This document shows, piece after piece, positions 23,156 to 59,161 of a DNA stretch of 64,000 nucleotides (position 1 is the stretch's first letter; every line of letters starts with the position of its first letter). The notes under the pieces are model-generated. The model was not told the DNA's origin. It did not search any database and worked only from the letters and a program-made list of their open reading frames with translations. The position numbers and the translations under genes were made by a program. Where the stretch lies: assembly GCA_001574975.1 (NCBI GenBank), contig KQ965749.1, positions 4,082 through 68,081 of the forward strand, written 5' to 3'. This stretch comes from Gonapodya prolifera JEL478. Taxonomy: Eukaryota; Monoblepharomycota; Monoblepharidomycetes; Monoblepharidales; Gonapodyaceae.

Positions 23156-24103
23156 CTACTTCTTCTTTGACTGTTCCTCCTTCTCGGCGCCACCGATGGC
23201 CCAGTCGATGAGTGCTGAGGACAGATGCGTGAGCGTGATGATGAGGGTGAAGGAGGGAGAGTGCAAGGGGAGAAGGGGAGAGTGAGATTCGAGATAGGGG
23301 TAATGGTGAAGATGGAAGAGATAGGGATGAGGGAGGAGAAAAGAAGATGTGATTGATGATGCGAGAGAGGGGGAGAGAGCGATGAGCAAGTGAAGATTGA
23401 AGGACGGGTAATAAGCACGTTGATTGAATAGTCGACAAGGACGGGACAACAGAGACTCACCCTCTGGAGAGTACCTGTACGATTCGGAGTCGATAATGAC
23501 TGTCGACGTCCCGCGCAGGTGCGATGGTTGATGAAGAAGAAGGAGTCGTCAAAGAACATGGTCGTGGTGAGTGATGTTTTGATCGGCATCCACCCCTCCC
23601 CCCCCCCCCCCCCGCGGGTAGTTCGCCTCCGGCAGACAGCCTCGGTCAGCGCTGCGCGCTTAGGCCTCGGGCACCCTCCTCCGGCCTTGGCAGGCCTCCG
23701 TCGGTCACATCTGCTCCCAGGCCTTCGTAGCTCGAACCCCCCACCCCACCCCCACAAACTCACGCCCTGGATTCGCGTCTGCAAACTTTTTATCCTTCCA
23801 CGCTGCGTAAGCGACGCGGGCCTCCTCGACGAGCAGGTCGTACTCGCGCTTTGTCTCGTTGTCAGCGCGCTCCTTGACAAAGGCACGCAGGGAGAGGTCC
23901 TTTGAGAAACCGTAGTAGGCGCCGAATGCGAGTGCCGACCAGCGGAGGTACTGCGTGAGGGTGTGGTGGTGGGGGATGGGTTTGGGGTTGGGGTGTGGGT
24001 GCATTGGGGGGGGAGAAGGACGTTGGCATGGCCGGAAGTGGGTGAAAAACGGAGCCAGCAGACGTACGTTTACCGTCGCGTAGTTGACAATCGGGTTCGC
24101 CAT
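23156..24103 (-). CDS. ATP21: Mitochondrial ATP synthase subunit e
   Basis: Subunit e (Atp21, formerly Tim11) sits in the membrane part of the F1Fo ATP synthase and drives dimer formation. The start is MANPIVNYATVNV at 24103. After an intron comes YLRWSALAFGAYYGFSKDLS (about 23890-23950), the single membrane span with the family GxxxG-like pattern, then VEEARVAYAAWKDKK. After a 250-nt intron (about 23514-23763) comes a small exon IIDSESYRYSPE, and a last exon ALIDWAIGGAEKEEQSKKK to TAG at 23156-23158. About 100 aa. The long intron carries one copy of the intronic repeat and a run of about 19 C bases (about 23593-23613). It is paired head to head with the BSD gene. Confidence 0.87.
23620..23668 (-). 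repeat. Intronic repeat unit in ATP21 intron (introner-like family)
   Basis: On the minus strand, the transcribed sense of ATP21, the unit reads GAGGCCTAAGCGCGC, then AGCGCTGACCGAGG, then a CTGTCTG link and CCGGAGGCGAAC. Its first part can pair AGCGC with GCGCT. It shares this order with units in the BSD, FCP1-like and fungal_trans introns. Confidence 0.8.
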
Positions 24104-24229
24104 TGTGATTGGACGCGGAGCGGCGAGGAGTGTGAGCTGAAAAGAGTCAGCCAGTGCACACAAGAAATCTGGCACACCGACCAAGGATTCCAGCCTGTGG
24201 AATGGAGTGAGTGGACACAGCAGCAGACA
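24104..24229. promoter_or_regulatory. Divergent promoter spacer ATP21 / BSD gene
   Basis: 126 bp between start codons. Contains ATTGG (24107-24111), an inverted CCAAT core, a common element in fungal promoters of respiratory genes. Function is inferred only. Confidence 0.45.
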
Positions 24230-26240
24230 ATGCAGATTGGCAGCTGGTTCGCGACGCCAGAGTTAGCTGCAGTGGGAGACAGAGTAAAGAGCACGTGGAG
24301 TAAGGTGGCCGAGCAGGTGGCAAGTGTATCCAAGGTGGGGGAATATACTCTACTTGGGAGAGTTGGAATAAGCAACGCCATCACCCACCGCTCCAGATCG
24401 TGGAAAAGGAGATCGAAGACGAGCTCAAGTCAAGCAAGCAGGCCGTTCCCGCGCCAGCTGAAACTCCAGAAACAGCGCAAGTACAACTGCCATGGGACCA
24501 CATCGAACCTGCAATGCGGGACCCGCTCAAACGACAGGTCCTACTTCTCTCTCAGGTGAATCTGCGAGCAGTCCGACCGGAGCAGCAACGCGAGCGGAGA
24601 GAGGACTCCGAGGCCTAAGCGCGATAGCGCTTACCGAGGACCGAGCGAAGCGAGGCTGTCCGCCGGAGGCGAATGGTCTGTGCGCGAAGCGCGAATGACA
24701 CACCACGGAGCGCGAAAGTCCCACGTGGAGCGTATTCCTCTGCCGGAGGCGAATACCTGTGTGAAGCGGATATTCCCGTTCTAACCAGAGCAACTTGGCA
24801 ACTTGTAGGAACAACGAAACTTCACAATCGACCCACACACCGCCGAGAACGACGCCCCCTTTGACATGTCCGCGCACTGGCCACTTGCCAGGGCGATGCT
24901 GGTGCAGGACCCGACGCTGTCAGAGCTCAGATTCCAGTTGGTTCCCAAAGTCGTCAAGGAGGAAGTCTTTTGGAGAAACTACTTTTACAGAGTTGGGTAA
25001 GTTCAATTCTTCTGCCACACTTTTTCGCACTTGGTGCTGATGTTCGCCTTGAATGTATCGATTGGTCTGGGTTTCGTGGGACGTTGGGACATTGGATATG
25101 GTTGGATGGTGTATATTGGGTGTCATGGGACGTCGGGGCATTGTATTGTGTCACATCTGTTGTCATTGGACGTTGGGTATTGGGTATCGGATGTGTATAT
25201 TGGGTTTCATGGGACATTGGCATACGTCGGGGCATTGGTACATGTGTCACGCCTTGTGTCACGCCTGGTGTCACTGGACATTGGAAACGTGTCACGCCTG
25301 GTGTCATTGCACGTTGGGTATGGGCCTCGGATGCTGGATTGGTCATTGATCCTTTGTCTTGTGTCATGTGGCATGAATACGTGGACATTTCGCACCAAAC
25401 CACCTCCCCAGCTTGATCCAGCAAGCCCTTGCCGAACCATACCAACCAACTCGCCATCGTCGTGGACTGTCCAACCCCGCTCCTGCTCCTGTTCCCTCCT
25501 CATTACCCGCCGCTTCCTCCTCTCCTTCCCCTACCGTCCCTTCCACCACCACCAACCCCGCCATTCCTCCCTCCTCAACAACCACCCCGTCTTTCCCCCT
25601 CCGCATCCAAACCGTTACCCCATACGACAAATCTCCAGCGACCTCCAAATCCCCCGCACCTCCACCGGTAGACCACATCACGGCCGCGATCGAGTCGGCG
25701 CTCAGCGGGGAAGGGTGGGATGATGAGTTGGATCGGGAGTTGGAGGTGGGCGTGGGGGAGGATGATGGTGAGTTGAATGGCCCGGGGTGTACTGAGGGGG
25801 ATTGGTGGGGTGTGGAGGGAGAAGAGGAGGAGCGAAAGGATGGGTGATGGGTGAAGGGTGACCGAGTGGACAGGCCGGAGTGAGGGATGAACTTGATGAA
25901 CACGTTTGAGAGTGGCGGGGATGTGCTGTGGAGCTTGTGGGCCGACCTGAATCTGATTCATGATCAAGCCGCAAGGAAGAAGTCGGAGTTGGCAAGTTGG
26001 GGAGCGAGAGATCATCAGAGCGGCGGAGCCCAGAGGGTTGGGCAGGCATGGCGCACTTGGACGGACCTGAATCTGGAGTAAAACGTGGGAAGAGCCAGGA
26101 GGGACCGCCCGTGTCTCTGCACTTCCCGACGTAGCGCTCATCCCTTCCATTACCGCCTACCTCCCCCCTCAGTGAAACTGCACGACGGGTGGGAAGACGA
26201 GCTCAAGCAGATGCTCGAGCAGGAGCAGCCGTCCACATAA
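24230..26240 (+). CDS. BSD-domain protein
   Basis: A BSD-domain protein of the BSDC1/Dos2 type; the cellular role is not established. The start is MQIGSWFATPELAAVGDRVK at 24230, with no better ATG in frame. Exons join to VASVSKIVEKEIEDELKSSK and PLKRQVLLLSQ. After a 255-nt intron rich in repeat units (24556-24810) comes the BSD domain: HTAENDAPFDMSAHWPLARA, LSELRFQLVPKVVKEEVFW and RNYFYRVG (about 24880-24999). An intron of about 410 nt with a decayed tandem repeat follows, then LIQQALAEPYQPT, a Ser/Pro-rich linker, and GEGWDDELDREL. A last intron of 405 nt (25768-26172, GTGAGT donor, CTCAG acceptor) leads to KLHDGWEDELKQMLEQEQ and TAA at 26238-26240. All three long introns exceed the local norm. 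Confidence 0.85.
24610..24678 (+). repeat. Intronic repeat unit in BSD gene (introner-like family)
   Basis: In the 24556-24810 intron the unit reads GAGGCCTAAGCGCGATAGCG, then CTTACCGAGG, then a 17-base insertion, then CCGCCGGAGGCGAATGGTC. TAAGCGC pairs with GCGCTTA around a GATA loop. Two partial copies of the second half (around 24678-24705 and 24740-24780, GCCGGAGGCGAATACC) follow in the same intron. Sense orientation. Confidence 0.82.
25050..25345 (+). repeat. Decayed tandem repeat (minisatellite) inside a BSD-gene intron
   Basis: Recurring phrases built from GTATATTGGGTGTCATGGGA, CGTCGGGGCATTG and TGTCACGCCTGGTGTCA, each seen two or three times with small differences. The whole stretch lies between the BSD-domain exon and the next exon at about 25410, so it is removed by splicing. 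Confidence 0.6.
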
Positions 26241-27069
26241 CGACCGCCCGGGGGTGCCGGAACTCCTCGTCCGACGACCGGACGGCCGCACTGCCGCACG
26301 ACAGCACGGCAGCACAGCTCATCAAACCTCGTTCGCAACCAGTATATTAGAATCCGACACAGTGAAGTTGTACATGGACAATAGCCATGCGCGTTTGATC
26401 TCGTGCGCTGATTTTCGGGCCAAACTGTTTATAAACAGAGGAAATGCATAAATCAACGTTGCCAGCACCGCGTCCCCTTTTCTGTTTCGCTGATGCTCCA
26501 GGCTATTACAAGGTTGGCGGGTTTGTTGGGCGAGTAAACTGTGGCAGAACACCTCATACGATACGATGACAAACACTGTCTTTTACAATGTCTTACAACT
26601 TAGTGCCGCAGGATATGACACCTCCTTGTGTGGTGCCATTGTCATAGATTTGTAACTTCCGCAGTGCCGTCTGTGTGCTCTGTGGTTTCTTCGAGCATAT
26701 CTTTCTCACGCGATCATGTTGTAGCCACGACAACTACCGCCAAAGGGGATAATACGATGCCATCGAGACTGAGACAAAGCAAGAGTTGGACAAAATGAAC
26801 GACATGGTTGAAGGAGAGGCGGAGTTGAAAAAGCTACAATCGCAGCAATTTTGGAATGTACTTTGATGTTGCGTCTTTAAGTGAGAGGCCAATCGCTAGA
26901 GCCAGAGTTCAACACGTACGGATCCGGGCTCCGGCGTGATTGTACCGAAATTCACAAAATAGAATAATTGATAATAAAAGTAGAAATCAATCCATGAATA
27001 CGGCAACTCCCAGCCAAGCGGAGTTCTACACATTACTTCTTTTAAACACTGCGTTGCAAAAGTCGCTGA
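26241..27069. other. Spacer with one dispersed repeat
   Basis: No gene seen. It holds one copy of the roughly 60-bp downstream repeat (26328-26390), then AT-rich DNA up to the 3' end of the kinase-TPR gene. Confidence 0.5.
26328..26390 (+). repeat. Dispersed downstream repeat, copy 1
   Basis: Begins CTCGTTCGCAACCAGTATAT and continues with TTGTACATGGACAATAGCCA and TGC. It shares its order of blocks with copies at 31457 and 32186. It starts 88 bp after the BSD stop codon. Confidence 0.7.
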
Positions 27070-29650
27070 AAACGCTATCACTCCTAGACGTTGTAAAGAT
27101 GTTGATTTGCTGCCTCAGTTTCTGTGCCTGGTGTGCCATGGCAAGCGCATGCTGCGGCGCAAGCCTGTTTGGGTGATCCTCATCAAGCATGCGTTGTCGG
27201 ATTGCACAACATGCGCGAGCAGTTCAATTGTTTTGTCGAGCTCCCCTTGGTCTTGGTACGCCAAAGCAAGGTTGTGCTGCAACGTAAGCCGGGATGGATG
27301 GTCCTCGGCAAAGGGTGCGTTCTTGGATCTTGGTGGCAAGCTCCAGCACCGCAACTGCCTTACCCACCTCCCCTTGCGCCTGGTACGATTCGGGATGGGT
27401 GGTTTTCGGACAGAGTGCGTTCTCGAATTGCAGCAAATGGTTCAAGTCGGACAACAGCGTTGCCCATCTCTCCATGCTCTTGGTATGCCAATGCAAGGTC
27501 ATTCTGCGACGTCAACCGGTCTGGGTGGTCGTCCGCCAGCGTGCGTTGACGGATCTCTACAACACTTCCAAAAGAGCGACAGCCATGGCAAGCCTTTGCT
27601 GTGACGCCAGGCTGTCTGGGTGGTCTTTAGCCTCAATATGGTCTCGGATTGCGACAACATGCTCCAGCAGTGCAAGTGCCAAAGGCACTTCCGCAAGGGC
27701 CTGGTATGCCATCGCAAGTGCGTGCTGCGATGCCAGCTTATCGGGGTGGTCCTCGGCCATTGTGCCTTCTTGGATAGTGACGACATGCTCCAGCAGCGCA
27801 ACTGCTTTTGCCACCTGGCCATGTTTTTCGTAAACAACAGCATGCTGCTCTTGTGAATCCAGCAAGTCTGGGTGGTCTTCAGCCAGAGTCTGTTCTCTGA
27901 TTGCCACAACTTGCTACGGAGCAAAACTGCCATGCTTTCCGTGGGCCTGGTATGCGGTCGCAAGGTTGTACTGCACCTTCAGACGATCTAGATGGTCAGG
28001 AGGAAGTGCACTTTCTTGAATGGCATTGGCTTGCTCCAGCAGATGGGCAGCTTTGCCAGCGTTTACAGCGACGCCGATGCCGTCCACGTACCAGTCTGCC
28101 AACCTGATTTGCGCATCAACATGTCCATTTGATGCGGCCCTCTCATACCACTCCGCGGCGTGCTCAAGAGATTTATCAAGGACACCAAGGCGATTGCAGT
28201 AGTACCACGCAAGACGCTCTTGTGCCGCCGGTCACCCATTAAAGCAGCCCTCTTGAACAATTGTGATGCTCTGTCGAGATCGCGAGTGTCTGCCGCCTCC
28301 CTGGCAAGGTCCACAAGAGCTGCAGCATTTAGTTCAGGGTTGATGTCAAGCATGGGGTGCGACGAGAGTGCGACGAGCTCAGGGCTAGCAAGCGACTCAA
28401 TCAACTAATTGAATGGCAACATTCACGGGAATTCAGAGGTGATCACTCACACCTTGACCGCAAGCATGGCTTTGATTTCCGAGAAGCTCGGACGCTGCTC
28501 CGGTTCCTGATGGCAGCATTGCTCCATAAGACCTCGGAGCAATTTGGCATGCCTGCTGGAGTTGGCTCCCACTCAAGAAGAGGACGCAGGCTACCTTTGC
28601 AAATGCATCGCCACACTATTTCAAGTTTTTCACGAGTCAACGTTGACATGAACTGTGGGTACAAGGTTTGAAGCGTCCACATCTACGATGGTGTTTTATC
28701 CAGTGATGTAAGGGCATCGGGCCATAGTTTCCGATTGCACTCACCGATAAGATGGTAATGCCAAAAGCATAGACGTCATCTTTGGTTGTTGTACCTTCTC
28801 CCAGAAGCCGCTGTGGCGACATGTACTTTGCCGTACCCGATCGCGACCCTGTGACCGTGATATTGTCTCTTTGTGGATCCAAAGTTTGAATCAGAGGCGT
28901 CAAATTGACGGCGCTATCAGCGGGTTCCTACACAATTTTCAAAGCATACCCAGTGCCTCATACATGGTAGATATTTGCTCGCACTGCAACATGTACTCGC
29001 CAACATTCCACGGTCCATCTTGGAGAACCCGAAGTCTGTCACGACACCACGCCCTGACGATCAACAAGTATGGTTTGAGCTCCGCGTGAACTACTTTGCG
29101 ATTGTGCAGGTAGTCCATTCCTTCGGCAGTGTCACGGAGCTGTGAGGTGGAGTACGAGTTGGACAAGAAATGCAGCACTTGAGTTCCGACCAGGCTTCGC
29201 ATTTCTCTGGGGACCGGGTGGGAATCGTCGGAGATAGCCACTCTGTGCCTCTGGTGATGATGCCAAAGAGGGGGAGAACTCTAGGCGAGGACATGTTGTA
29301 CCAGATTGTAGCCTCCCTGTTGAATTGCTATCCAAACAGGCGGAGCATTTGGTGCAAAAGTGAGTGTCGCAAATCGTCGACCGTTGCCAATCCCTTGCTG
29401 ATCAACTCACCTTTTAAATGTAGCCTTCCCTGAACCGTACTGTTTTCACAGCGACATCAATCTGGCCCTGCCAGATTCCACGCACAACGGTACCGACACC
29501 GCCCCCACCCAGCTTCTCGTCTGTGCGTTGGACTTCCGACTCTTGCACTTCCCAACGTTTCCATTGACCTGGGAGTTCCTCGCGGTCAATTTCCATTGGG
29601 ACGGCGCAGCACGATCGCGAAAAGGGTGGAGTTTCGGAGACGCTCTTCAC
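27070..29650 (-). pseudogene. Protein kinase-Sel1-TPR gene, broken
   Basis: A TKL-like kinase fused to Sel1 and kinesin-light-chain-type TPR repeats. The start is at 29650 or MEIDREELPGQWKRWEV (29596). The kinase has the glycine loop GGGGVGTVVRGIWQGQ, the lysine VAVKTV, LRDTAEGMDYLHNRKVVHAE (HAEL-KP catalytic-loop variant, about 29090), DFGFSKM, and SGTAKYMSPQRLLGEGTTTK (about 28810) with DDVYAFGI. Sel1-like repeats (ASQLFKRAALMGD) and 42-residue TPRs (AEDHPDKLASQHALAMAYQA) follow. The frame changes several times in both kinase and TPR parts where no intron fits. Examples are a one-base loss in the TPR at about 27560 (ALLE then VVEIRQRTLADDHPD in another frame), others at about 27395, 27320 and 27200, and one just before DFG. 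It is either a decaying gene or an uncorrected sequence. Confidence 0.7.
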
Positions 29651-29750
29651 CTAGACCGGCGCCTGGAGGGGAATGCAGTCAAACGTTGTTAGCTGGGAAC
29701 TGCGGCCGCGGTAAGGTTTCACCCAGCCAACAGACCCATCGCACCCAAAA
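29651..29750. promoter_or_regulatory. Divergent promoter spacer kinase-TPR / leucine aminopeptidase
   Basis: 100 bp between the outermost start codons, or 154 bp if the kinase starts at 29596. GC-rich, contains GCGGCCGC (29702-29709). Confidence 0.4.
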
Positions 29751-31411
29751 ATGCGACGGGTAGCTCTTCTGGCCATACTCTCAGTCTTCTTTTTTGCCAC
29801 TGTGAAGTCATGGCCCACCACCCATCCTTCGCTGCTCGACCTCTCGGACAGTTCAGCCGACGATCGAGAGCTGATTGCCCAGCCCCCCGTTTGGGTTGAG
29901 CCATGGGGCCCCCGTCTCATTCAGCTTGAGGATGGCGCTGCTCCAATTTCGATGACGGAAGAGGAGATTCTCGACCTTATTCGCGCCAAGCGCAAGTTGT
30001 GAGTATGCTTGTACAGTGAATCGAGTCCTTATACGACACGTTTAACCCAACTTCACCAGCATGGACGTCACACAGTGGCCGAGCGATATTGAAGTTTCGG
30101 TGTGGAAGTCGCCCTCTGGTATCAGCCCGGCTTCCAAAGACACTCCAAAACTTCGATACCAGCCGATTCTCAAAGGCGTATTCTCCAATATATCCGAGGA
30201 TGCGTGTCGAACTTTTTTGACAAAGTTTTCGTCCTTCCCAACTCGCTATTTCCGGTCTCAATCTGGAGTGGACTCTGCAAAGTGGTTGCTTTCGGAAATC
30301 ACGAAACTCGCCGACTCAACGATCGAACAAAGAATCCGTGAAGGTCACCGTCCGTACCATCGCGAACAGTTTCTCTCAGCCGAACATTGTTGCTAGGATT
30401 GAGAAAGCCCAGGACGAGGACAAAGGATCATCGACTGGAGCGACGCAACCAATTGTTGTTGTTTCAGCGCACCAGGATTCGATAAACCAGTGGTGAGTTC
30501 CTGACTGTGTATGAAACTCCTAAAATAATGCACTCATGGGCACGTCATTTCAAAAAGGAATCCATGGTTTGGTCGTGCACCGGGTGCAGACGATGATGGC
30601 TCCGGAAGCACCACGCTCCACGAAGCATTCTCAGTCTACACAAAGGCGGGATTGGTTCCCGAAATTCCTATTGAATTTCACTGGTACGCTGGTGAGGAGG
30701 GTGGACTCCTTGGGAGTCAAACTGTGGTGTCGGCTTACAAGAAGAAGGGTGTTGCTGTTCGCGGAGTGCTCCACATTGACATGGCGGGTTGGACAGGCGA
30801 AGCCAATGGGAAGAAGGAGGTCATTGGTATTGGACAAGTGAGTCTGGGTGTTGCGAAGTGGAATCGTCGGATTGAATCTTATACTATCCCTCTGTTCGTC
30901 AGGACTTTGTCGATCCAAGCTTGACAAAGTTCATGGAGTCTCTTGTGGTACGTCATCTTTTGATATAAAGACCTTCTAAGGGCATGCTGCGATATTCTCT
31001 TCTGCAATTCCTGGCGGAAGGATGAATACCTTACAATTCCGCACGTAACAACTGAATGTGGATACGCCTGCAGCGACCATGCAAGCTGGACGAAAGCGGG
31101 ATATCCGGTTGGTTGTCGTTTGCGATTGCCACCCACAATGCTTGTCAGAGGTCTCACCTATAATCAATGGTGATTACACCAGGCGGTGTTTCCATTTGAG
31201 TCAACCTTCAAGGATTCAAATCCGTATATCCACACTACAAAGGTATGTACTGGCCGGATAAGTTCTATCACATATCAACCCGGCAATAGAACTGATGGTT
31301 GTACAATCCAACCAGGACTCAATTGAGCAGATCTCATTTTCCCACATTGCTCAACATGTCCGCTTAGTGCTTTCTTTCCTGGTTGAGCTTGGTGGTCTCA
31401 CAGAGAGTTGA
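29751..31411 (+). CDS. LAP1: Secreted leucine aminopeptidase (M28E)
   Basis: A zinc aminopeptidase that removes N-terminal residues, preferably Leu, from peptides outside the cell. The start [20 protein letters not shown] at 29751 is a signal peptide. The propeptide-like part is followed by [19 protein letters not shown] (about 30245-30303). Then come the two-zinc ligands in family order: His in [12 protein letters not shown] (about 30450), Asp in GADDDGSGS (about 30587), the catalytic and ligand Glu pair in [13 protein letters not shown] (about 30685), Asp in [11 protein letters not shown] (about 30775), and His in [10 protein letters not shown] (about 31220-31240). Between them [18 protein letters not shown] carries the disulphide Cys pair. 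The C-terminus is [11 protein letters not shown] with TGA at 31409-31411. Six or so introns. All ligands are present, so it is probably active. Confidence 0.9.
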
Positions 31412-31456
31412 TGACCTCGTGGTGTATCGAAGATGCAATGGACCACTTCAATGACA

Positions 31457-31515
31457 CCTCGTTCGCAACTACTATTATTGACAAAGTATTTTGTACATTG
31501 ACAATAGTTCTGCGA
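31457..31515 (+). repeat. Dispersed downstream repeat, copy 2
   Basis: Begins CCTCGTTCGCAACTACTATT, then TTTGTACATTGACAATAGTT. It starts 45 bp after the aminopeptidase stop codon. Confidence 0.75.
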
Positions 31516-35120: not shown

Positions 35121-37289
<2,169 letters not shown>

Positions 37290-47592: not shown

Positions 47593-50303
47593 ATGGCCTC
47601 GTACCTCAAGAACGCGGCCTCGGATGTCACGGGCTCTTCCGCAGCCGCCGATGCCACCACCCAATCCGAGCAAATTCCCGGCCGGGAGCAGGACATGACG
47701 CAGAACTCCGCGGGAGGATTCACATTCAAAGGTAAATGCTTTCAATTTTTGACGCTTGCGGTTGCTGGCTCTGATTTCGCTCTTGCTGCGCATCTTGTCA
47801 TCAACATGTGATTCTTCAAAGTCACCGATTTCGAGGGACTGCGCCGCTTCCTTGTACTGGGAACGGAGGCAGGAACATGTTACTGCCAGGTTTGAACTTT
47901 CCTGTCGTTATTCTTTCCCTGTTCGTGTCTCACGGTGATGGGCTCTTTCAGGAGACGAAAGTGGCTCTCGACAACGCAAAGTCAATCAAAACCATCATTG
48001 AGGAAGGGAAGGGCAAAGAAGTCGTCGACGTGGTTACCGAATATAGCGAGGGCGGACGAACACCCAAGCAGGACACGCTCATATTCCCCCTTGCCTTGGT
48101 CACGCGCTTCGGGAACGACAATCAGCGCCAGTATGCCTACACCAAAGTTGCTGCCGTGTGTCGCATTCCAACGTGAGTCCTCCCGCCCTCGCTTACAGGG
48201 TCCTCGGCGCCATGTTGTCAGCTTTCGAAAACCCTTTCCACAAATAGCGCACTCTTCGGCCTCATCGAATTTATCAAAGCCCTCAGCAATAACAGCCATC
48301 GCATGGGCGGACGCGGTCTCCACCGTGCGATTAGGGACTGGTACAACCTGCGTGCCAGTGGGAACGCCACGAAGCTTGCCCAAAGATGAAGAGCACGCGG
48401 CGCTGTACAAGTGTGAGTTTGTGTGGTGTAACCACTTGGCGAATGATCATCACCACAGTCGATTTTGTTTTCTTTATCACGGTTAGATATCACAACGTCC
48501 TAGAAGGAGTTCAAGCGGAAGCGTTCGACTCTGATTCAGGATATGGAGAGGAAGATTGAGGAGAACGCTGTGAAAACTGGAAGAGGAGATGGGTCTCGGC
48601 CGGGAAGACTTTGAAATGATCCTCCCAACGGAAGGCCGCACTACTGGTACCACAGACCGGGCGAGCGAGGAAAGCGGGGCAAGTGACTCAAAAGGGGAGC
48701 GCTGAGAAGAGCGACGACAAAGACACACAAAAGCAGGCAGACGAGAAGCAAAGCATGGACGTGGACGACAAAAGCGAAAAGAAAGACGTTTCAAAATCGG
48801 TCAAAGAAGATGATAAAGAGGTTCAGGAGGAGGTCTTGGTGAAAGCAGATGCCAACAGCGACGTGGAAATCGGTGGATCTTCAGCCGAAGAGACTGCCCC
48901 AAAGGAAGACGCAGACGGAAATTAGAAAAAGAAGAAGAAAGTCGTGCGAAAGCCTCACAAATCCATCAAATCTACAACACCGAGGCGAATGTGCACACTT
49001 CTCAACTTCATCAAAGACGTGGAGGACATCCACAAGATTCAGCTCTTGAAAAACAAGATGACGATGCCCCGGGATCGCCGTATTCGCCACAATTACCGCA
49101 ACGCCGGGGGTGCGGATAGTGCATCCAGAGAGGCCAAGAATGCAGAACACGAGGCAAAGATCGTCGCGCTGATCAAGAAGTGGAGGCTTGCCAGGGAGCA
49201 TGTGCCTTCGGACTGGCTCAAGAGCAGGCGGTGTGGGAGACCTTGCTTCAGGATATGCCCATGACGGCAATGTGAGTTCGAGATGCACTTGTCGTGTGTT
49301 AGATGAGGGAAAACCGTTTCATCTCACCGCCTCCACCATATACACAGGATCCGCAACCTCTCAAAAATGACGTCCATCAAACTGCTCAGCCCCATGTCCG
49401 CTGCCTCGGTACTGGTGGCCACCCGTCTTCGCGACCAGGAAGCTCTGAAGAAGGCCAAGGTGCGCCCGTACAATTTGTACATCGCGGTCAAGACGTACCA
49501 GCAGGGGCACGGGATGACGGGAACGTTGACCTGGAGGCCTGATTAGGAGATCTTGGGTGGGCTGATTTGTTGTATGTGAAGGATGCAACCGTGCTGATTA
49601 GTCCCCGTAATTTGACGTAGCGGCGCTGGAGGATGCGTTTTACCTTTCCTTTGGGGTGGTGGAGTCCTCTGGCAAGCGGCACCTTCTTGCATTGGACGTG
49701 TCGGGATCGATGGAAGAGACATTGATGTGAGTGGAATTCGATGATGGGAGTCTTGCCGGACGAGTGTTCAAGTATCTCCCCTAGGAACTCACCCGTCACA
49801 TGCGTGAAGCGACAGCTGTGCTGGCAATGGCGACTGCACGGATTGAGCCACGCTGCCACTTCTTCGGTGAGTGGAGACTGTATGTTCACGTGCAATAAAA
49901 TGGTTCTTCACCCTCGGAATTTCGCGTAACTAGGATTTTGCGACGAGTCCATGCCACTGAACGTGACCAAAAACGACCGACTCGACGAAGTTGAGTGCGA
50001 AATCTCCGACCTTCCGTTCGGTGGGACGGACTGCTCGCTGCCGATACTGTACGCCCTGGAGAACAAGATCCCCGTGTACGTATTCATCGTGTACACGGAC
50101 AGCGAGACATGGTATGGCTGCATACCCCGACGGAGGCCCTGGCCAAGTATCACCGCGAGATGGGCATTCCGGCAAAGATGGCTGTGGCGGCAATGACGGC
50201 GACGGAGTTCACCATTGCGGATCCGGAAGATGTGGGTCAGATGGATGTCGTCGGGTTCGACGCTGGGGCGGTGCAGGTCATGGCGGCCTTTGTCAGGGGA
50301 TGA
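47593..50303 (+). pseudogene. Ro60/TROVE-domain RNA-binding protein, with frame breaks
   Basis: Homologue of the 60-kDa Ro protein, a ring of HEAT-like repeats that binds Y RNAs and misfolded small RNAs, followed by a VWA domain. Start MASYLKNAASDVTGSSAAAD at 47593. Motifs in order: TFKVTDFEGLRRFLVLGTEA (about 47820), EYSEGGRTPKQDTLIFPLAL, LFGLIEFIKALSNNSHRMGG, LHRAIRDWYNLRASGNATKL (about 48310-48385), WRLAREHVPSDWLKS (about 49180), VWETLLQDMPMTAM, IRNLSKMTSIKLLSPMSAAS, YNLYIAVKTYQQGHGMTGTL, RHLLALDVSGSMEETL with the MIDAS motif (about 49695), FGGTDCSLPILYALENKIPV (about 50018), VFIVYTDSETWYG, PTEALAKYHREMGIPAKMAV, and FTIADPEDVGQMDVVGFDAG. Breaks: a TGA after TKLAQR (about 48388) with the usual WSHKDLLRLSH segment missing, a TAG after a long Asp/Glu/Lys-rich insertion (48923), and one-base losses near 49225 and 50120. 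Confidence 0.82.
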
Positions 50304-50522
50304 ATGGGTGTGATGTGTGAAGCGGGTGATATCGGTATGAAAATTGATAAAGAAGGGTTATAATGTAGACGAAAATTTGGATAATTTGAATTTCTTTCCT
50401 TTTCTTACGCTGGCCAAATGCCGCCTTTATATGTGTTTTCGCTCGGTGGTTCGGATGACTGAAAGAAGGGGGGGCTCGGTGTCGATTTGACCGCAGCACT
50501 CACTTTTCGAAGCCAGCAATCA

Positions 50523-52693
50523 ATGGATCTACCGAAAACACTGGAGCTTGTCCCAGCAGGACTCCATCTCCTTCGCAAAGAGAAACGGGAGCGGGCTTGG
50601 CTGGCGCAGGGAGAAGACGTGTGCAGGACTTGCCTGACGGAAGCAGTTCGACCGGCGTTTTGCATGGCGAAAGGTGAGAGAATGGCCGTTCCAGGACAAG
50701 ATCACCGAGACATTGACAAAATCATCCTCTCCAAAGTTCCCTTCCTGGTGAATCCATGCCTCTGGCATCCAGAATGGCGTGACGTCACCTCACCGCCTTC
50801 GGAAACAATCTGCTCGAACGCACAGATATACAAGTACTCTCGAGTGTATGGAGTCACGGAGACGCCGGGCTCTACTCTGAGAATACTCTCCCCCGTTTCC
50901 CCGCACGCCCGTGTGACCCGCTCTCTGATGACGACGGAGGAGCGGATGAAAGGGGTTGAGTTCGAAAAGCTGTTGCTCAAAAGGGGTGACGAAGGAACGC
51001 TTCAGCAGTTGACGGAGTCGGGAAAGGCGGAGACTATCATGTGAGTTCTGGTTGTTTTAGGGTCACGTTGTTCTGCAAGGTTGATCACTGAATGCATCTA
51101 CAGACTACACAACCCTTTCGAGCCCGCTGTCGAGACAAATCCAAGCATTTTCTTGGTAGATTCGACCGCTCTTGAGACAGAATCAGAGTCTCCGCCGAGC
51201 GCTTCCAGGCGCACAAGATCGCCAAAGCTTTCCTCTTCGACTTTTTTATCTTTGACACTCGTTGCGTCACCTTCCATGACTTTCAACATCCCGCCCTTCA
51301 TTCCGCCGTTTAGTCACACTAATATGAGAGCAGAAATCAGTCCGGCTTACCATTTGGTCACCATAACCGAATCCATCCTGAGGTGAATAAAAAGCGCATT
51401 TGTTTACGGAAGTCGGGAGTTGTCATCATATCTCCCGCCCTCAGACAGGACACCTTCTACGGCAAAGACATCACCGGAATAACATACGAGCCACCATCCT
51501 ACCACGACCTCCTAGGCAACGCTGACTACCGCTCATGGGGCTGTCCACACCCAGGCCAACGCGTGTACATCACACCATCATACGCGCACCTCAACGTCGC
51601 CACAATCACACCGGCGACCGTGGGCCGTCACCAGCCGCACGGCCCACTCTTTCTTTCCAAGACGGCAAAGCTCCCGATGAATGTCGTGGACGGGTATTTG
51701 GACCTGGTTCAGAGGAAGGATAGGGGTGTTGGGGGAAGGACGTCGCGGGAGTGGAGGGATGCGGGGGATGTGAATGAGATGGACAAGTGGAAGGTTAAAG
51801 GGATGGTAGAGTCGGAGGATAAGGATACGGTCGTTTTTGGGGAGCATTACTTTCGGGCGAGTGTTGATGATTTACTTGATGGGCGAAACTGCGATCCTAA
51901 AACTCGGCTCCCACCCCTCGATCCACTAGGTCCACGTCAACTTCTTCGTACCATGGAGAAGTTTTGTGGACTCGCCGCCACAGGCTGCGACTTTAGCCCC
52001 TGCTACACACTCCCCAGCGCCTGCACACAAGCAGGGTCTCCAGCCCCGCTCCAAACAATCCCCGAGAACGGACGCCTCCCCTCCGCACCAAGTAACCCCA
52101 ACAAACGCCCCACAATCCCGATAGAAGACCGACGCGTGATCTACTGGAAAAAGACCAAAACCTTGACGCTTCCGACAATGCGCGCTGCATCCGTGCCGGC
52201 GCCGGCCGAGTTCTTGGTGTTGTGGAAGGTACGTGCCGACGGTTCACGACGAACCTTGTGGGATCGACTCACAAATGAACTATGACTGTCAGTTTGAGCT
52301 TTCGCTCGATGAGGACCAGACCTACAGTTGGGTCGTCACACGAATGTGAGTGATCTCAACGGTCAACCACGCCCTCAAGCTACCGTATCATTGATCACTG
52401 TTGCCTCTACGCTTGCCAAGGCATCCAATGGTCCCCCTTCCCCCTCCATCAACCCCGCACTCTGACGCCTTCTCTGCCTGCTTCCACTGCGGTGTCCCAA
52501 CCACCCCCTCGACTCTTCTCCTGTGCACTGGATGCCGCCCCGCGTTCCCACTCGAGACTGTAGACCCCGTGGGGTGTCCTGGGTACTGCAGTATGACGTG
52601 TCAGCGGTTTGATTGGAAAAGGGTCACAAGTGGGCGTGTAAGATGTTGCATAAGGCGGCGGTCGTGGGCTTGGATGACGCAGAGGCAGTGTGA
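50523..52693 (+). CDS. MYND zinc-finger protein, otherwise unknown
   Basis: Recognised only by its C-terminal MYND finger, a zinc-binding protein-interaction module. The start is MDLPKTLELVPAGLHLLRKE at 50523. The N-terminal 400 residues match no family I know. They include GEDVCRTCLTEAVRPAF with two Cys, a Ser-rich stretch, and an exon of about 900 nt (51383-52230) with ITGITYEPPSYHDLLGNADY. The finger reads CFHCGVPTTPSTLLLCTGCR, YCSMTCQRFDWK (about 52480-52620) and HKWACKMLHKAAV, ending at TGA 52691-52693. Between FDWK and HKWACK the frame slips by one base at a run of A (about 52616-52620: AAAA where AAAAA would keep frame), best explained as a sequencing error in a homopolymer. About five introns. 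Confidence 0.7.
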
Positions 52694-53143
52694 GAGTCGA
52701 CGTGGTTGAGCTTGCTCTCGCTTCAGAGGTGGAGCGTGGGCGCCAGGAAGATCAAACAAAAGCAACAACCAATCAGTCACATCCAAATAGTATCACAATT
52801 ATCCCAAAGAGAGAAGAGCAAGAATAAAATACAGCTGAATACTCAAAGAAAAAGAGCGTCTCCTCCATTACTAATGCCACTACCTCTGATCCCCAAGACT
52901 GTGTAATTGGTTGAAATTCGGTTAAACTTCAGGATCTTCATCTGAGCTTGTTCCTCGTTCGTTTCGGCAACTGGATTCAGTGGCCATCCCGCTCTGCTGC
53001 TCTTCTCAATCAAGCCCTCCCTCTCGACGCTTCGTGGGCATTTGCGGGGTGCCCATGACTCCAGCTCGTCGCTGCATGCCAAAGGGGGACAAAAGTTCCA
53101 ACTCCATCGCCGCAGGACGCATCTCTAGCTGCCAAAAGAGCTG
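52694..53143. other. Spacer without a recognised gene
   Basis: About 450 bp between two plus-strand genes. It must contain the promoter of the FCP1-like gene and possibly a first exon of it, since a TAG (53220-53222) may be an intron acceptor rather than a stop. Nothing else was recognised. Confidence 0.4.
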
Positions 53144-54715
53144 ATGACCACCAAGGAACTCGGTCCTACCAAGCGCTGGGTCGCTGGGAGCTCTGAGCGC
53201 GATCCTTTGGCCGGTGACACATAGGAAGGCGATGATTGCACCGACATTCTTGTCGTACTGGACCTCAACGGAACGCTTCTGGACCGCATCACCAAGGCGC
53301 GCCTCGCTCGAGACCGAAAGACTGGCGCGACGCTGTTGAACGTCTCCACTTCGCCGCCCAACTGAACAAGAATCCGGTCTACCTGCGCCCTTACCTGTTT
53401 TACTTTCTGGAGTTTGTGTTCTCCACGTTTCATGTCACTATGTGGACGTCTGCGACAATCAAGAACGCGCTCGTTTTGGTCCAAGGTGCAATGCCCCAAC
53501 ATCTCTACGAGAAGCTCGAGTTCGTGTGGGAAAGGTCCAAGTGCGACTTTGGATGGCCTGCAGATTACAGTGATTCAAAGAAGAATCTGGAAGAGATATG
53601 GAGGGCATACCCGAAATGGAATGAGGTGAGTGAAATTTATCAGGATCGCGAGGCCTGGACGCGACAACGCTGACGGAGAGTCCGGCGGAGGCGAGTGGTC
53701 CGCGAAGCGGAATACATTCATCGCCAGAGGAGAATTCCCGTGAAGCGGTACACTCATCACCGGAGCGAACCCGAGGCCTAGGCGTGATAGCGCTGACCGA
53801 GGAGTCCGCTGGAGGCGAATGATACAGCGCAGAGTAATATTCCATTTCTGAAGTTTGTACGCTCCACTCCTCCTTCTCGCTCCAGCGTAACACCATCATC
53901 CTCGACGACACCTCCAGCAAGCACGTGTCTAGCCCCAGCAACGCCGTGCTCATTCCCACCTACATCATACTCGCACAGGAAGGCACTTCCCCCGTGTTGC
54001 AGCATATCTCCACAATCTACACATGTGGTACCGTGTCATCGCTCGCAATGATGACCGTGCCGACGTGAGGACTTGGATGCGTGGGAACAGCCTGATCGAG
54101 GTCCTGGCGGGTTCTGCCCCTGCCCACTCTGCTGCCTTTTTCTCTCTTTCGTCGTCAGGAACTCTTCCCTACAACCGCTTTATAGACCACGAGATCATCA
54201 CGGACAGTCGTGGCGCTGTCACGCATATGACGCTGATACCCGGATGTCGCCAGGTAGATGTGGACTCGGCTGCCAAAAGGGAAGATGGCGAGGACGAGAC
54301 ATGGAAGCGAGGCTGGGAGACGGGCAAAAAGGAGGGATATCGGGAGGGTGGCCGGGGTGGGCGAGTCTGAGAAATGAAGCGAGGTGTGGTGTCAATACCG
54401 CAGGTGGACGGGATGACGAGAGTTGCAAGTTTGAGCGAAATTTGGAGCCCCCGAGACAGGATGAAACACAAAAATCTTGATGCGGCAAGCGTGGAGCGTG
54501 TTCGGATGGTTTTGGTCCTGGGGAAGGACAAGGACGGGACCTATTTTGAGAATGCGTCTGAGCTCGATGCCGCCACGACAGAAGAGGAGCTCAGCGATGA
54601 CGATACAACGAGGGCGAAGAGGAGGAAGACGGATGTGTTTACGGGGAGTTTGAAAGCATGGGAAGGGGCTGGGCGAGCTGGGACTGTTCTTTTGGTGACG
54701 ACGTGGTGTGTTTGA
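53144..54715 (+). CDS. FCP1/NIF-type (HAD) phosphatase-like protein
   Basis: A haloacid-dehalogenase-fold protein of the FCP1/small CTD phosphatase group. The motif I region is ILVVLDLNGTLLDRITKARL (about 53247-53306), where the usual DxDGT appears as DLNGT, so the second catalytic Asp is Asn. Then YLRPYLFYFLEFVFSTFHVT and MWTSATIKNALVLVQGAMPQ (motif II, about 53380-53495), EFVWERSKCDF and, after a 250-nt intron (about 53625-53886), NTIILDDTSSKHVSSPSNAV (motif III/IV DD, about 53890). The Asp-to-Asn change would be expected to weaken or abolish phosphatase activity. The start ATG 53144 is tentative, as an in-frame TAG at 53220 suggests an upstream exon. A frame change near 53350 needs either a small intron or a base error. 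Downstream exons (to about 54715) with GKDKDGTYFENASELDAATT are low-complexity and could belong to this gene or a neighbour. Confidence 0.65.
53650..53700 (+). repeat. Intronic repeat unit 1 in FCP1-like gene
   Basis: Reads GAGGCCTGGACGCGACAACG, then CTGACGGAGA, then GTCCGGCGGAGGCGAGTGG. Same block order as the other units, in the sense strand of the gene. It begins 25 bases after the donor site. Confidence 0.78.
53773..53823 (+). repeat. Intronic repeat unit 2 in FCP1-like gene
   Basis: Reads GAGGCCTAGGCGTGATAGCG, then CTGACCGAGGA, then GTCCGCTGGAGGCGAATGAT. This is the second unit in the same 250-nt intron, also in sense orientation. Confidence 0.82.
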
Positions 54716-55059
54716 AGGTGGACGCAAGTTTCTGTTGGGCTACTACTTCGTTGGGATTCTTTACAGGTTTTGCATCATGATACTTGCATTTGCTTTGCTT
54801 GAGGGGTTTTGCATCACGTTTTCTTTTTCTTGTTTCCATGGATGGATGTGGCATGATCACGTAGTACCAATTTTGAGATTATTTTCATTTGTTTGTCACT
54901 GAGAGAAAGAATCGCATAGAAAACGACTTCCCGTCGCTTCCCTGCTCCACAAGGAAAATATGGATTATCACTCGAGAAGGTGAATCTAATTGTCTCCGGA
55001 GTTCGGGAAGGTGAGCTTGGCCTTGGAATGTTAGACAACACACATTGGTCAAGGCAACC
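54716..55059. other. Spacer without a recognised gene
   Basis: About 340 bp between plus-strand genes. No frame or repeat supported. Confidence 0.4.
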
Positions 55060-55521
55060 ATGTGCAAACGTTACAATCTGGAGCTACCCCTCGCAGCGTC
55101 GATGTGCCCTTCTGGTCCGGGCAATTTTGAGCAATTGTTGATGAATTGCTTGCCCGAAAACCATAGAGTGTTCAAACCCTTGGATATCGAGTCTGTCTAT
55201 GCAGCCATTGGCTGTACCAACCTCACCCCAACAAAGAAGTGCTCACGGTGCGAGATGGTCTATTACTGTGACGTCGTTTGCCAAAAGACGCACTGGAAGG
55301 TTCACAAGGCAATCTGTAGAAGGGACTTCTGGAATGTGGAGGAGGTGCATGAAGCTGAAGATGTGGAACAGACTGTACAATGGTCAATGGGGGCGCCGTT
55401 TGTTGGATGGGTACCATGCTCCACTTGTTTGATCGCACAGTATTGTTGCACTTTGTATTCTCTGGAACAAGGCAAAGTTCCCGTCCTTCCAATTTCAGAT
55501 ATCTTTTTGTGCGTTAATTGA
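55060..55521 (+). CDS. Small MYND-finger protein
   Basis: A single open frame of 153 codons starting MCKRYNLELPLAASMCPSGP. The finger reads AAIGCTNLTPTKKCSRCEMV then YYCDVVCQKTHWKVHKAIC (about 55200-55317). It has six of the seven Cys and the His of the MYND pattern, but the first Cys of the opening CxxC pair is replaced (AAIGC), so zinc binding at the first site may be weak unless an upstream exon supplies it. The N-terminal half is unfamiliar. The C-terminus after the finger (PFVGWVPCSTCLIAQYCCTL) is Cys-rich. It could be a 3' part of a longer MYND gene, since an intron upstream is possible. Confidence 0.6.
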   Translation: MCKRYNLELPLAASMCPSGPGNFEQLLMNCLPENHRVFKPLDIESVYAAIGCTNLTPTKKCSRCEMVYYCDVVCQKTHWKVHKAICRRDFWNVEEVHEAEDVEQTVQWSMGAPFVGWVPCSTCLIAQYCCTLYSLEQGKVPVLPISDIFLCVN

Positions 55522-55752
55522 ATAAAAAATTTCCCTCTAAAATGTTCCCCAGAATCAAACTAAGAGAGCATATATTCAAAGCAACAACGCAATATCAGGC
55601 ACATCCAAATCAGTATCGTAACTATCACAAAGAGAAAAGGCAATCATTATGCAACTGCAAATCCAAGAAAAGACTCCCTCGTCCAGCTCAACCAATGCAT
55701 AATGCCGCACTGCCTCACTGCCACACTCGCCCATTTTATCTCAGCACTATCT

Positions 55753-58700
55753 TCACGACGCCGCAATCAACTTTTCGCCCCGGTTTTTCACCCCTTGCAC
55801 CGCCGCCCTCAATTTGGAAGGGTAGTCCACCGTGAGTACCTTCTCCATCAACCGCTTCGAATACTGCCCGGCGATCCCCCACCCGTGGGACGCAACACTA
55901 TCCAGAATCTCAAACACCAGCTGCAAGTCGTCCATCGCCACTGAGAGGCCCTCGCACTCGGAGATTTTCTCGATCGAGTAGGCGAGCGAGGGCATCCACA
56001 GGGGGAACTTGAGATCCCGAAGGCGCGCGCGCGCGTTAGGGTCTCGCGCTGCCACGGGAGGTGTGGGAAGCACGCCGCTCCCAAAGCGCGGATCCGAGAC
56101 GAGATAGCGTATTTCGCGGAGGACGTTTTTGCATTCCGCAAGGCATTTCTCGGGTGCCAGTTTAAGGAACATGAGGCTTGAGTGCGGCGGGGTGAAAGTT
56201 GCGGACGCGAAGGGTCGTGGATGCCGGGTTTCCATCAGTCGCTATTCCAACAGCTGAATCGCTTATGCTCCAACTCACCACCTCAAATTATAATACGAGA
56301 CGAGCGTCGCCATTCCTAATCGCAAGGTATCCCACGACCCTTCCTGCTCTTGCTCCTCTTTGTCTCCCGTGAGAGCTGCAAGAGCGGGAGAAATGGTGTT
56401 CGTGGGGGAAGACGCCGAGGGTGGGCCGAGAGATTGAATGTCGGGAGGTAGACCGTACCAGGTACAGAACTCTCGCTCGAGGGTTTCGCCTATTGTTGCG
56501 TGGTGGTGGCGTGTTCAGTCCAACCATCAAAAAGCTGTCCGACCCGGTTTACCAACCGTCTTCGACTCCATCCTCCAACAAGTAATACAACGTCCTGCTC
56601 ATAAACCAACAGAACACAACCATGGCGGAAAAGGGGGGTGTTGCAGTGATGGGGCGGATGGATTTGAATGGGTTTCCCGAGGGAGCAGGTGTGGGAGGAG
56701 CGGAGGCGTGTGGTTTGAAGAAGTACTTGTCACAGCAGCTGATTAAAGGGAGAAGAGCAGGGCAGGGAGGATGAGACGGTGAAAACCCAAACCTCTAACC
56801 CTGACCTCAGACGTCAACTCACGGCAACGGGATCTCAATCTCGCTGGCCCTCAGATATGGTATCCTCGCCTCGATGATGGCCGTGTACGAGTCCAGGATG
56901 TACAGCGCCCAGAACGTCCTGCGTTTTTCCTCCGCCTCCCGCCATTCGCCTGGTTTCTGCACTTGGGGGCCCTGCCCCTGCGCCCCCCCAACCGCCATAT
57001 AACTCTTTGCCCGGCCCAACCCCATCCGCCTCGCCATCGCCACGGCCAAACTCAACCACATCTCATCCAGTCCTTTGCCCATATGCCCGTTTGTGACGAT
57101 GTCAAAGATCAGGATCAGGATCGCCTGAAGTGTGGCTAGGTTTGATGTGATCGTGCGAGAGACTGAGGGCGTCGAGAAGGGGTCCGAGTCGAGGAGCGAC
57201 GAAGGCCCCGACGAGAACGCGATGGAGCGTAGGTCACGCTCGGCGAGGGAGAAGTAGGCGTCGCCCGCAGAGGAGCCCGATGTTGTGTGGCGGGATGCGA
57301 CTGGTGGTGGGATGTGTTGGGAAACGGGTGAGTGAAGGAGGACAACGCCACGCACCAGCATACACCGCATATAAAAACGCGGGTGGCTTGAACGCCAGCT
57401 CCTTCAAGAACGTCGCCGGATGGAAAATAGGCATCGCGGTGTTGAAGTAGGCCAAGAACGCTGCCACGAGCGTTCTATCAATGTACACCCCGCCTGCGCC
57501 CGTCGACAGGGCCGATCCACGGCGGGACAGTGCACCTGCACCGGCAACGTCAACCAAGTCCAACTCCAACACCCCCGCCCCAGCTCCGGACTCGGGCACG
57601 ACGGCGACAGCCTCCGAGGGCGCGACGGGGAGGGTGAAGGTCGGGTGCATATCTCCCAGGGATGTGCGCAGGCGGGCGAATGTTTCGGACCAGGCGTCCG
57701 GGAGGGAGAATGAGAGGTGCGGTCCCGTGTGAGTGGACGCAGCAGGAGGACTGGAGGAGGAAGATGAGTCGGATACGTCGTCCGGTGCGCGTTGGTCCCG
57801 CTGAAGGTGCGGGAGGGGGTTGGGGTTGGGGTGCGGTGGATGGGCGAGTGCGGGGAAGGGGATTGTGGATTGGTGGTTGTGGTATGCAGTGGATCCGGCG
57901 AGGAGGTTGGCGAGGGAGTCCTCGGCGGTTGAGGGAGAGCGCCACGGAGATCCGGCGTCTGCGAGGCGCAGGTCGGCGAGGAAGGATGGGCGGCGGTGGG
58001 AGGCGCGGGATTCGGTTGTGTACTGGGGGGTGTACTGGGAAAAGTGTGGTGGCGTACCGCCGGTGAACTGCGGAAAGTCAAACTCAGACCCGACCGACGT
58101 CGATGTCGATCGGCGATGTGCGTGCCCCCCCGCCGCCGCCTGGTATGCGTCGTAGATGAACGACGAGGACATGGACATGGAGCGAGGACGTCCGGACGGG
58201 TGCACGTCGGACTTGACGCGCTTGTCCTGTCGGTGGTAGAGCTCGTCATCGATGTCCGAAGCCGAGTCCATGTCGAGGAGTGGTGCGGAGGTGGGAAGTT
58301 TGCCGGTGGAAGAGCGGGTTTGGATTTTGCTATGTTGGAGGGGAGTGAGTGATGTGAGAGAGTGAATTTGGTACTCCGGAACACGCTCCGAGGCGATATC
58401 GCGTCTTTGAAGCAGCCCTCGGTCAGTGCTGTCGCACTTAGGCCTCTGCCTCGCAGTCAATTACCCTCTCGCACACTCGAACCCCCTACCCCATCTATAC
58501 GAGAAAGCTTCTCGGTTATATGCTCCGCGCGGTAAATCTCCTCTGGCAGACTGCTCAAACAGAGCTGTCGCATGCATCTCGCGACTAACTCCCAACCCGG
58601 TCCTCAGACGCAGATACTTCTCGCCAAGACGATCCGTGGGGAATTCGCTTCCGGCAGACTGCTCGAACACGCTTCGCGCTTAGACCTCGAGCTCAGAGTC

Positions 58701-59161
58701 TGGCTGTTGCACTCAGGCCTCGGACTCCCTGCGCTCTGTGTCTCCCGGCTTCGGTCTTGTGGTCTCAGTCGCAAAACCCCTCCGTCCCCTCCCACCAACT
58801 ATCTCCCCTCACGCCACCCCCAACACTGATGCTTACCGTGGCGGGAGGGAAGGCAGAGGAGGTCGAGAAGCTGTACAGAAAAGCAATCAACTTGAAAACG
58901 TCAAAACCCCCGCACTCGAATCCAAGACCACCTACCCTCCGGCACAGCTACTGCCCCCTCTTCTGGCCGTATCTTTCTCGGTCTTCCTCTCTTCCTCTTC
59001 ACCGGCTGCTGCTGCATCCCGTCTGCTCCAGCTCTTCCTACTCCAACGTCCACTCCCGTCATGGCTTCCGCCCCCACGTCCTGGGCAAAGTGGTCGTGCG
59101 TCAGAATCACAGGCGACAGCGGTCCAATCGGCATCGCTGCTGCGGCTGCTCCTGTCTCCAT
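55753..59161 (-). CDS. Fungal_trans-domain transcription regulator with AT-hook
   Basis: A nuclear regulator with the fungal-specific transcription-factor domain (PF04082 type). The start METGAAAAAMPIGPLSPVIL at 59161 leads to an AT-hook KRKRGRPRKIRPEE (about 58955-58996), which binds the minor groove of AT-rich DNA. No Zn2Cys6 cluster can be seen in any N-terminal frame, although that is the usual partner of this domain. After a short exon and an intron of about 510 nt (about 58346-58850) full of repeat units comes a large Ser/Pro/Thr-rich exon, then AMPIFHPATFLKELAFKPPA (about 57385-57445). The core follows with DEMWLSLAVAMARRMGLGRA (about 57007-57066) and EEKRRTFWALYILDSYTAII (about 56872-56931), EARIPYLRASEIEIPLP. 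The last exon is 56235-55753, with VSDPRFGSGVLPTPP and SIEKISECEGLSVAMDDLQL. Confidence 0.8.
58412..58445 (-). repeat. Intronic repeat unit c in fungal_trans gene
   Basis: On the minus strand reads GAGGCCTAAGTGCGACAGCA then CTGACCGAGGGCTG. AGTGC pairs with GCACT around GACA. Compared with AGCGC/GCGCT in other copies, both sides of the pair have changed together. Confidence 0.8.
58641..58689 (-). repeat. Intronic repeat unit b in fungal_trans gene
   Basis: On the minus strand reads GAGGTCTAAGCGCGAAGCG, then a diverged link, then AGTCTGCCGGAAGCGAATTC. Sense orientation, in the same intron as units a and c. Confidence 0.7.
58691..58723 (-). repeat. Intronic repeat unit a in fungal_trans gene
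   Basis: On the minus strand reads GAGGCCTGAGTGCAACAGC followed by CAGACTCTGAG. It is the most diverged of the three units of this intron and lacks the second half. Confidence 0.6.

Follow-up and report, generated by a model that had tools for sequence, protein, structure and literature searches.

How spliceosomal introns originate and grow is a long-standing question, with introners as the main known bulk source, and a 64-kb stretch of the genome of Gonapodya prolifera JEL478 raises it in a particular form. In this stretch (the window; C19:4082-68081 of an assembly of 47,557,447 bases in 207 contigs), an initial annotation had described seven copies of a roughly 50-bp unit in the introns of four unrelated genes, always in the sense of the host gene, and had proposed that they represent a family of introners. 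Does this repeat create introns, invade them or serve them? The explanation that we favor, while rating it somewhat short of an even chance, is a dispersed and modular intron-borne family that works like the introner-like elements of other fungi, is anchored towards the 5' splice site and spreads in a donor-anchored manner. The family is introner-like in its working, but its shared sequence generally stops well before the 3' boundary of the intron.

The repeat is not confined to the window. With up to three mismatches, the 22-mer core of the unit, GAGGCCTRAGCGCGRYAGCGCT, has 340 matches (164 + 176) in the 47.6-Mb assembly compared to one match (0 + 1) for the reversed pattern, and the genome-wide search proposed at the outset thus returned hundreds of core copies. 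The sequence is GC-rich and repetitive with poly-G tracts nearby, as would be expected if the matches arose by chance, from low complexity or from faulty assembly. This explanation is refuted by the reversed control, and the copies diverge independently and lie in genes with intact domains; we give it virtually no credence. The finding that 50 kb from five arbitrary places contained no copy is consistent with a density of 340 per 47.6 Mb. For closer analysis, 60 loci were fetched, of which 53 are distinct, and combined with the window; they are a subset of the 340 copies and comprise the best BLAST matches to a 71-base unit together with exact 22-mer matches. Left out as duplicates were L018, L039, L041, L043, L045 and L055, as well as L001 (covered by the window) and L012 (covered by L023); L057 was left out of the GNA-loop and leader-module counts, and L018 also out of a 29-row alignment.

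Comparison of 50 element introns, oriented by gene, revealed 4381 shared stretches in plus orientation and one in minus orientation. The shared sequence starts at a median of 7 nt from the donor (at most 10 nt in 29 of the 50 introns) and ends at a median of 82 nt before the acceptor, a few of these residuals being inflated where the gene finder fuses exons into long introns (L027, L006, a 23.2-kb intron). Because shared sequence comes within 10 nt of the acceptor in only four of the 50 introns, similarity does not run from end to end as it does in introners, and the unshared 3' end holds the branch point and the acceptor. Of the proposed introner family, the recurrence of a repeat in sense in introns of unrelated genes is therefore upheld, but not the whole-intron repeat. 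Read from the donor, an element intron usually consists of a leader (where recognized), one to four core-plus-hairpin units and the unshared 3' end. In the 49 introns used for module counts, long leader probes of at least four types gave 26 matches in 22 introns, every one before the first core, while 128 of 142 hairpin modules lie after the first core and no module matched antisense. Twenty of these introns have one core, 18 have two, seven have three, three have four and one has none. The gene for the splicing factor Isy1 hosts an element intron with three cores (L051 1413-1886). Several introns are nearly wholly element, with coverages of 98% in L007, 94% in L036_1436, 90% in L028 and 88% in the window intron that starts at 24556.

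The location and strand of the copies were assessed with a gene finder that was trained on the same genome, with copies masked on both strands, and seeded by generic codon preferences. Four forced models were compared for each of 69 copy clusters, which are not all independent because homeologous loci are among them (L004/L029, L021/L052, L057/window). The best model was a sense intron in 48 clusters, an intergenic location in 12, an exon in nine and an antisense intron in none. The score for sense exceeded that for antisense by over 5 log units in 61 of the 69 clusters, and the reverse was seen in two (L013, L047); copies inside any one cluster share one direction. The window supplies two of the 12 clusters scored as intergenic. 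In ten of the 21 non-intron clusters, the best coding potential on either flank is in sense (L003 twice, L004, L005, L015, L035, L050, L054 and the window twice), and one more, L057, is homeologous to an element intron in a BSD-domain gene of the window. Altogether, a few copies among the sampled clusters may be intergenic, exonic or antisense. Counted within predicted introns only, 83 of 83 copies are in sense, a count that leaves out L013. When 20 of the 40 listed predicted proteins were run against Pfam, a domain crossed the element-intron junction in 12, as precise splicing of these introns would predict (L009, L017, L024, L030, L033, L040, L042, L044, L046, L051, L054, L060). The match over the junction in L036 is below the cut-off, the domain in L010, L027, L028 and L048 lies beside the junction or ends just beyond it, and L026, L034 and L056 have no Pfam match.

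The units are rich in small hairpins. The core hairpin has the form AGCGC-loop-GCGCT with loops such as GATA, GACA and GCTA, and examples of tail hairpins are TCGC-GGA-GCGA, CCGC-GAA-GCGG, GCGC-GGA-GCGC and CGCC-GGA-GGCG. GNA-loop hairpins with stems of at least 4 number 92 compared to 6.2 in shuffles, whereas the complementary TNC-loop hairpins number 3 compared to 4.6; the density of GNA-loop hairpins is 4.7 per kb compared to 0.38 in exons and 0.13 in other introns. The motif GCGNAGC, which embodies the general rule for stable DNA mini-hairpins, occurs 129 times in 49 element introns where 14.8 are expected, with N being G in 63, A in 46, C in 16 and T in four. Paired changes had initially been taken as a sign that the RNA fold matters. 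In 29 aligned units, 99.3% of the cells of the core helix are paired, but a two-sided change, from A-U to G-C, is seen at one of 15 pairs and in three of 29 sequences, and shuffles reach one two-sided pair in 265 of 500 cases; RNAalifold picked further helices beside the core helix with little covariation. Support for covariation in the core is thus weak, while the enrichment of GNA-loop hairpins with differing stems is strong.

These hairpins could be kept as functional intronic RNA that supports the splicing of long introns or regulates the host genes. In agreement with such a function, GNA loops persist while stems differ, they do so in sense only, pairing in the core is nearly complete and includes the A-U to G-C change, and element remnants are kept at one intron in older paralogs of a LUD-domain gene. 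However, the host genes are unrelated, modules differ between homeologues with 79-98% identical flanking exons, the whole structure is not more stable than shuffles, and no match above the gathering score of Rfam was found in window positions 23000-59500. Moreover, long introns without the element exist: both copies of the thymidylate synthase gene have a long G-rich intron of this kind, of 239 nt (L081 1970-2208) and 266 nt (L082 1234-1499). We consider such an RNA function to be quite improbable.

Parts of the assembly are present in two diverged copies, as would be the case in a hybrid or in a diploid whose copies were only partly merged: parts of window positions 21876-63918 match C75 (L066-L069) at about 71-88% identity, and exon probes of 18 element loci detected a second copy for eight, with L009 also having one. 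With some of the genes present in a second, diverged version, gain and loss of modules can be traced inside one organism. In all 15 homeologous intron pairs, three of them from the window, the intron is present in both partners, and family modules were seen by eye in both partners except in L077 (the partner of L040), which has tail-like sequence only. The third window intron is without a counterpart on C75, where window positions 49451-55551 (~6.1 kb with a NIF/FCP1-like gene and its element intron) shrink to ~1.35 kb (L069 4466-5817). Module number and type, on the other hand, vary between homeologues with the flanking exon identities given above. In the BSD intron, a hairpin module of 17 nt and a unit of 49 nt distinguish the two homeologues, and the L054/L070 introns are nearly unalignable internally, one flanking exon being 97.5% identical. 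With the intron common to all 15 pairs and the modules often different, turnover affects the modules, at uneven rates, and spares the introns.

Older paralogs bear on the proposal that the family creates introns. The LUD-domain gene is represented by L044, its homeologue L073 and the two older paralogs L079 and L080; based on our reading of the sequences, all four genes share four intron positions, the gene finder having missed one shared intron in L079 and misplaced one in L080. An element intron at SHL/VFG is present in L044/L073 and absent from L079 and L080, in which the coding sequence is continuous at this site. Judged from these sequences, this difference could have arisen by a single gain in L044/L073 or by a single loss in the older paralogs. 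By contrast, the FLK/STD element intron is common to the four genes, with an alignable tail kept in the paralogs. A neighboring intron of the LUD gene (L044 1774-2011, reverse-complement coordinates) is largely a CTTCATCACCTTCTTCAC-like repeat and is 238 nt long compared to 175 nt in the homeologue. Among more distant paralogs, the coding sequence is continuous and stop-free at both L042 sites (C7, 38%) and at the second L033 site (C47, 42%), while the matches over the L009 (C64, 33%) and L046 (C8, 48%) sites contain a stop and are doubtful, and other L033 paralogs (C43, C68) break near the first L033 site; at such low identity, these comparisons are weak evidence either way.

The family could consist of true introners if each insertion had created its intron by bringing the donor and the branch point, and if the 3' end of the element had decayed afterwards. 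The core carries CTGAC, the usual branch-point consensus, 65 times in sense and once in antisense in 47 element bodies, and CTRAC lies at most 20 nt downstream of 56 of 89 cores. Introns that are nearly all element, such as L007, the stop-free paralogs at the L042 and second L033 sites, and the SHL/VFG intron, which is missing in two paralogs that share four other introns, fit the same explanation, and it would account for the sense direction and perhaps for the LUD case. Yet all 15 homeologous pairs share the intron, the FLK/STD intron is present in all four LUD genes, the read-through at L009 and L046 and the L033 paralogs that break near the first site lend little help, and absence from a paralog can be a loss. 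Furthermore, 3' ends are unshared, although 5' ends of equal age are recognizable. The one candidate for intron creation by the family is the element intron that is absent from two paralogs by gain or loss, and we regard true introners as unlikely, though as a serious contender.

In the explanation that we favor, the donor-anchored family, an element intron would have its 5' part, together with the donor, copied into another intron. Transfer would proceed via a transcription-linked single-stranded intermediate, which could be intron RNA or the displaced coding strand. The donor hexamer common to both partners would set the start and the direction, the stable GNA-loop hairpins would cause slippage, strand switching and altered module number, and the near-wholly element introns may have been created by the same copying process. 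Copying of the 5' intron part would account for four features together: orientation in sense, similarity that sets in close to the donor, 3' ends that are not shared and turnover of the modules. The CTGAC in the core also fits this explanation. More generally, we speculate, and only tentatively since we deem it improbable on balance, that mobile intron material moves here not as a whole intron but from the 5' splice site inward, via single-stranded DNA or RNA with GNA-loop hairpins.

Several observations weigh against donor-anchored copying. In the loci examined, no copying event was caught between two named loci and no machinery was identified. More than 40 nt precede the first shared sequence in 10 of the 50 introns, some of them because of gene-model errors, and a start residual of 0 may include mere likeness to the GTGAGT donor. 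The anchoring itself may partly reflect a constraint: the last ~40 nt of an intron do not tolerate insertions, and insertion at random sites would therefore be expected to leave a long 3' stretch free of family sequence as well. For the short leader probe M1s, 16 matches precede the first core and 28 follow it, since this probe recognizes the tail hairpin too. Relatedness among the copies inflates the hairpin count, whose events are not independent, and four whole elements folded as RNA or DNA did no better than shuffles (z -1.2 to 0.3), which confines the structural argument to local hairpins. The L044/L073 introns differ little and turnover is thus not uniform. The choice of loci by best match under-samples old, decayed copies and over-represents well-kept ones. 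Nine of the 69 clusters are without assignment (L002, L008, L013 at 250, L020, L022, L030 at 2026, L031, L047, L053), with L022 and L047 leaning antisense by coding score. Finally, the copy at L013 1501-1569 (cluster at 1535) was verified to lie antisense in an intron of a minus-strand gene, which is NmrA-like by eye and has exons that continue on both sides of this intron. The original statement that copies are always in sense thus holds as an extreme bias in the examined copies, with L013 as an exception and L022 and L047 as possible ones. L013 provides a natural test of splicing with a reversed element.

The antisense copy in L013 is what would be expected if a non-autonomous mobile element, similar to a short interspersed nuclear element or a miniature inverted-repeat transposable element, inserted into existing introns and selection purged the exonic and antisense copies. 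The non-element residue per intron (median 113) is near the ordinary intron median of 86, as this scenario would have it, and selection against antisense copies is conceivable because TTAG/TCAG occurs 140 times on the pyrimidine-rich antisense strand compared to eight times on the sense strand and could act as false acceptors there. When a branch point is required, however, predicted acceptors number 8.2 per kb on the sense strand compared to 2.1 on the antisense strand, and splice damage would not obviously favor sense insertions. In addition, the antisense intron was the best model in none of the 69 clusters; the 12 clusters scored best as intergenic might be read in favor of dispersed insertion, but about half of the non-intron clusters either are sense-coding on both sides or match a window intron, as described above. 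A start near the donor and a variable number of modules are also unlike unit-length insertion. The elements have no sharply defined ends. We find insertion of such a mobile element rather improbable.

Returning to the window, a 68-position profile built from 72 units recovered six of the seven copies in the initial annotation with E from 1e-19 to 0.019, whereas a control search of the reversed window plus 50 kb gave a single match with E = 4. The profile added two weak pieces in the same introns as listed copies. All window copies are in sense and within four introns of different genes, as first reported, and these introns are indeed long, with ~264, 253, 260 and 507 nt compared to a median of 86 nt in 175 predicted introns without the element. 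Three host gene names were confirmed by Pfam (ATP-synt_E, BSD and NIF/FCP1-like), but the designation of the fourth gene as fungal_trans was not, the single exon submitted having no Pfam match. The gene finder predicts the first two window clusters as sense introns and slightly favors an intergenic location for the third and fourth, by 3.9 and 3.8; we read the latter as introns because the NIF domain spans the junction and because of exon conservation with the homeologue. Among window host genes with a Pfam match, only the NIF domain spans the element intron.

The first intron is predicted at 23500-23763 (264 nt, minus strand) in the ATP synthase E-chain (ATP21-like) gene; we set its acceptor by eye, guided by exon sequence conserved in the homeologue. 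The gene finder fused this intron with the next one to 23215-23763. The first intron contains a unit copy with the core and a CCGGAGGCGAAY hairpin at 23621-23670 (minus strand, profile E 9.9e-12). Long poly-G or G-rich tracts on the sense strand adjoin the element near the 5' splice site in this intron, in L009, in L030 and in others. The second intron, predicted at 24556-24808 (253 nt, plus strand) in the BSD-domain gene, is the one with 88% family sequence. A leader probe places a leader module of type M1 (GTCCGACCGGAGC...) at 24570-24606, ~15 nt past the donor and with an approximate end, and it is followed by a complete unit at 24608-24675 (E 1.3e-19) with the core hairpin, a GA/GNA hairpin and the CGCC-GGA-GGCG hairpin, and by a weak partial unit consisting of a tail hairpin at 24727-24755 (E 0.32), all on the plus strand.

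The third intron, predicted within the NIF/FCP1-like domain at 53626-53885 (260 nt, plus strand) with ends set by eye, has a diverged unit copy at 53649-53697 (E 0.019) and a further unit copy at 53771-53821 (E 8.2e-12), both on the plus strand. The fourth, predicted at 58330-58836 (507 nt, minus strand) near the 5' end of its gene, also with ends set by eye, contains on the minus strand a core-only unit copy at 58416-58446 (E 8.9e-6), in which the AGTGC/GCACT stem variant described earlier is present, a weak partial unit at 58535-58562 (E 6.1) and a unit copy at 58642-58689 (E 5.4e-5). The seventh copy of the initial annotation, at 58691-58723 on the same strand, is weak; it matches a 14-mer with three mismatches and is absent from the profile list.

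How does the family compare with known systems? Fungal mitochondrial double-hairpin elements are also mobile short hairpin modules, but they are mitochondrial and, unlike the family here, not tied to nuclear introns or gene direction. The comparisons that follow draw on parts of the cited papers. The introner-like elements of Dothideomycetes resemble the Gonapodya family in having hundreds of similar intronic copies in unrelated genes, with up to eight families per genome (PMC4457414), but they are whole introns at new positions, whereas in the present family sharing is limited to the 5' part, units occur in arrays of one to four and there is one candidate for intron creation. Stable secondary structure or inverted repeats have been reported for these elements, and an earlier discussion of fungal introner-like elements includes a model with transcription-linked R-loops (PMC8469720). 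The stwintrons and derived introns of Hypoxylaceae are similarly repeated spliceosomal introns that function on the coding strand only; they differ in having terminal inverted repeats and in seamless insertion of whole introns at new positions (PMC8469720). DNA mini-hairpins of the GCGNAGC kind, the motif found in element introns, are extraordinarily stable, but they were described as an in-vitro fold with no link to introns (PMC10527192).

A screen across eukaryotes identified 548 introner families in 175 genomes, which like the present family are intronic repeats across unrelated genes (PMC9860276). In the sections of this work that we consulted, pezizomycotina are the sole fungal group named, and ascomycete families are described as being without target-site duplications or terminal inverted repeats (PMC9860276). 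The screen called introners when similarity starts within 10 intronic (or five exonic) bases at both intron ends, and a 5'-anchored family would be removed by this filter (PMC9860276). Among the matches listed in the open-licence literature on introners and intron gain, there is no report of this 5'-anchored family.

As far as these sources go, fungal introners are named only in ascomycetes, and the Gonapodya family probably comes from another fungal phylum. The thymidylate synthase of this genome has PDB entry 2aaz (Cryptococcus neoformans) as its top match, with 391 bits ahead of 371 for the next entry, and together with the short introns and GTGAGT donors this would by itself suggest a basidiomycete. 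Any introner screen that demands a match at both intron ends would miss such a family. If intron material does move from the 5' splice site inward, introns would be enlarged, and sometimes born, from the donor end, and families of this kind would be invisible to screens for similarity at both ends.

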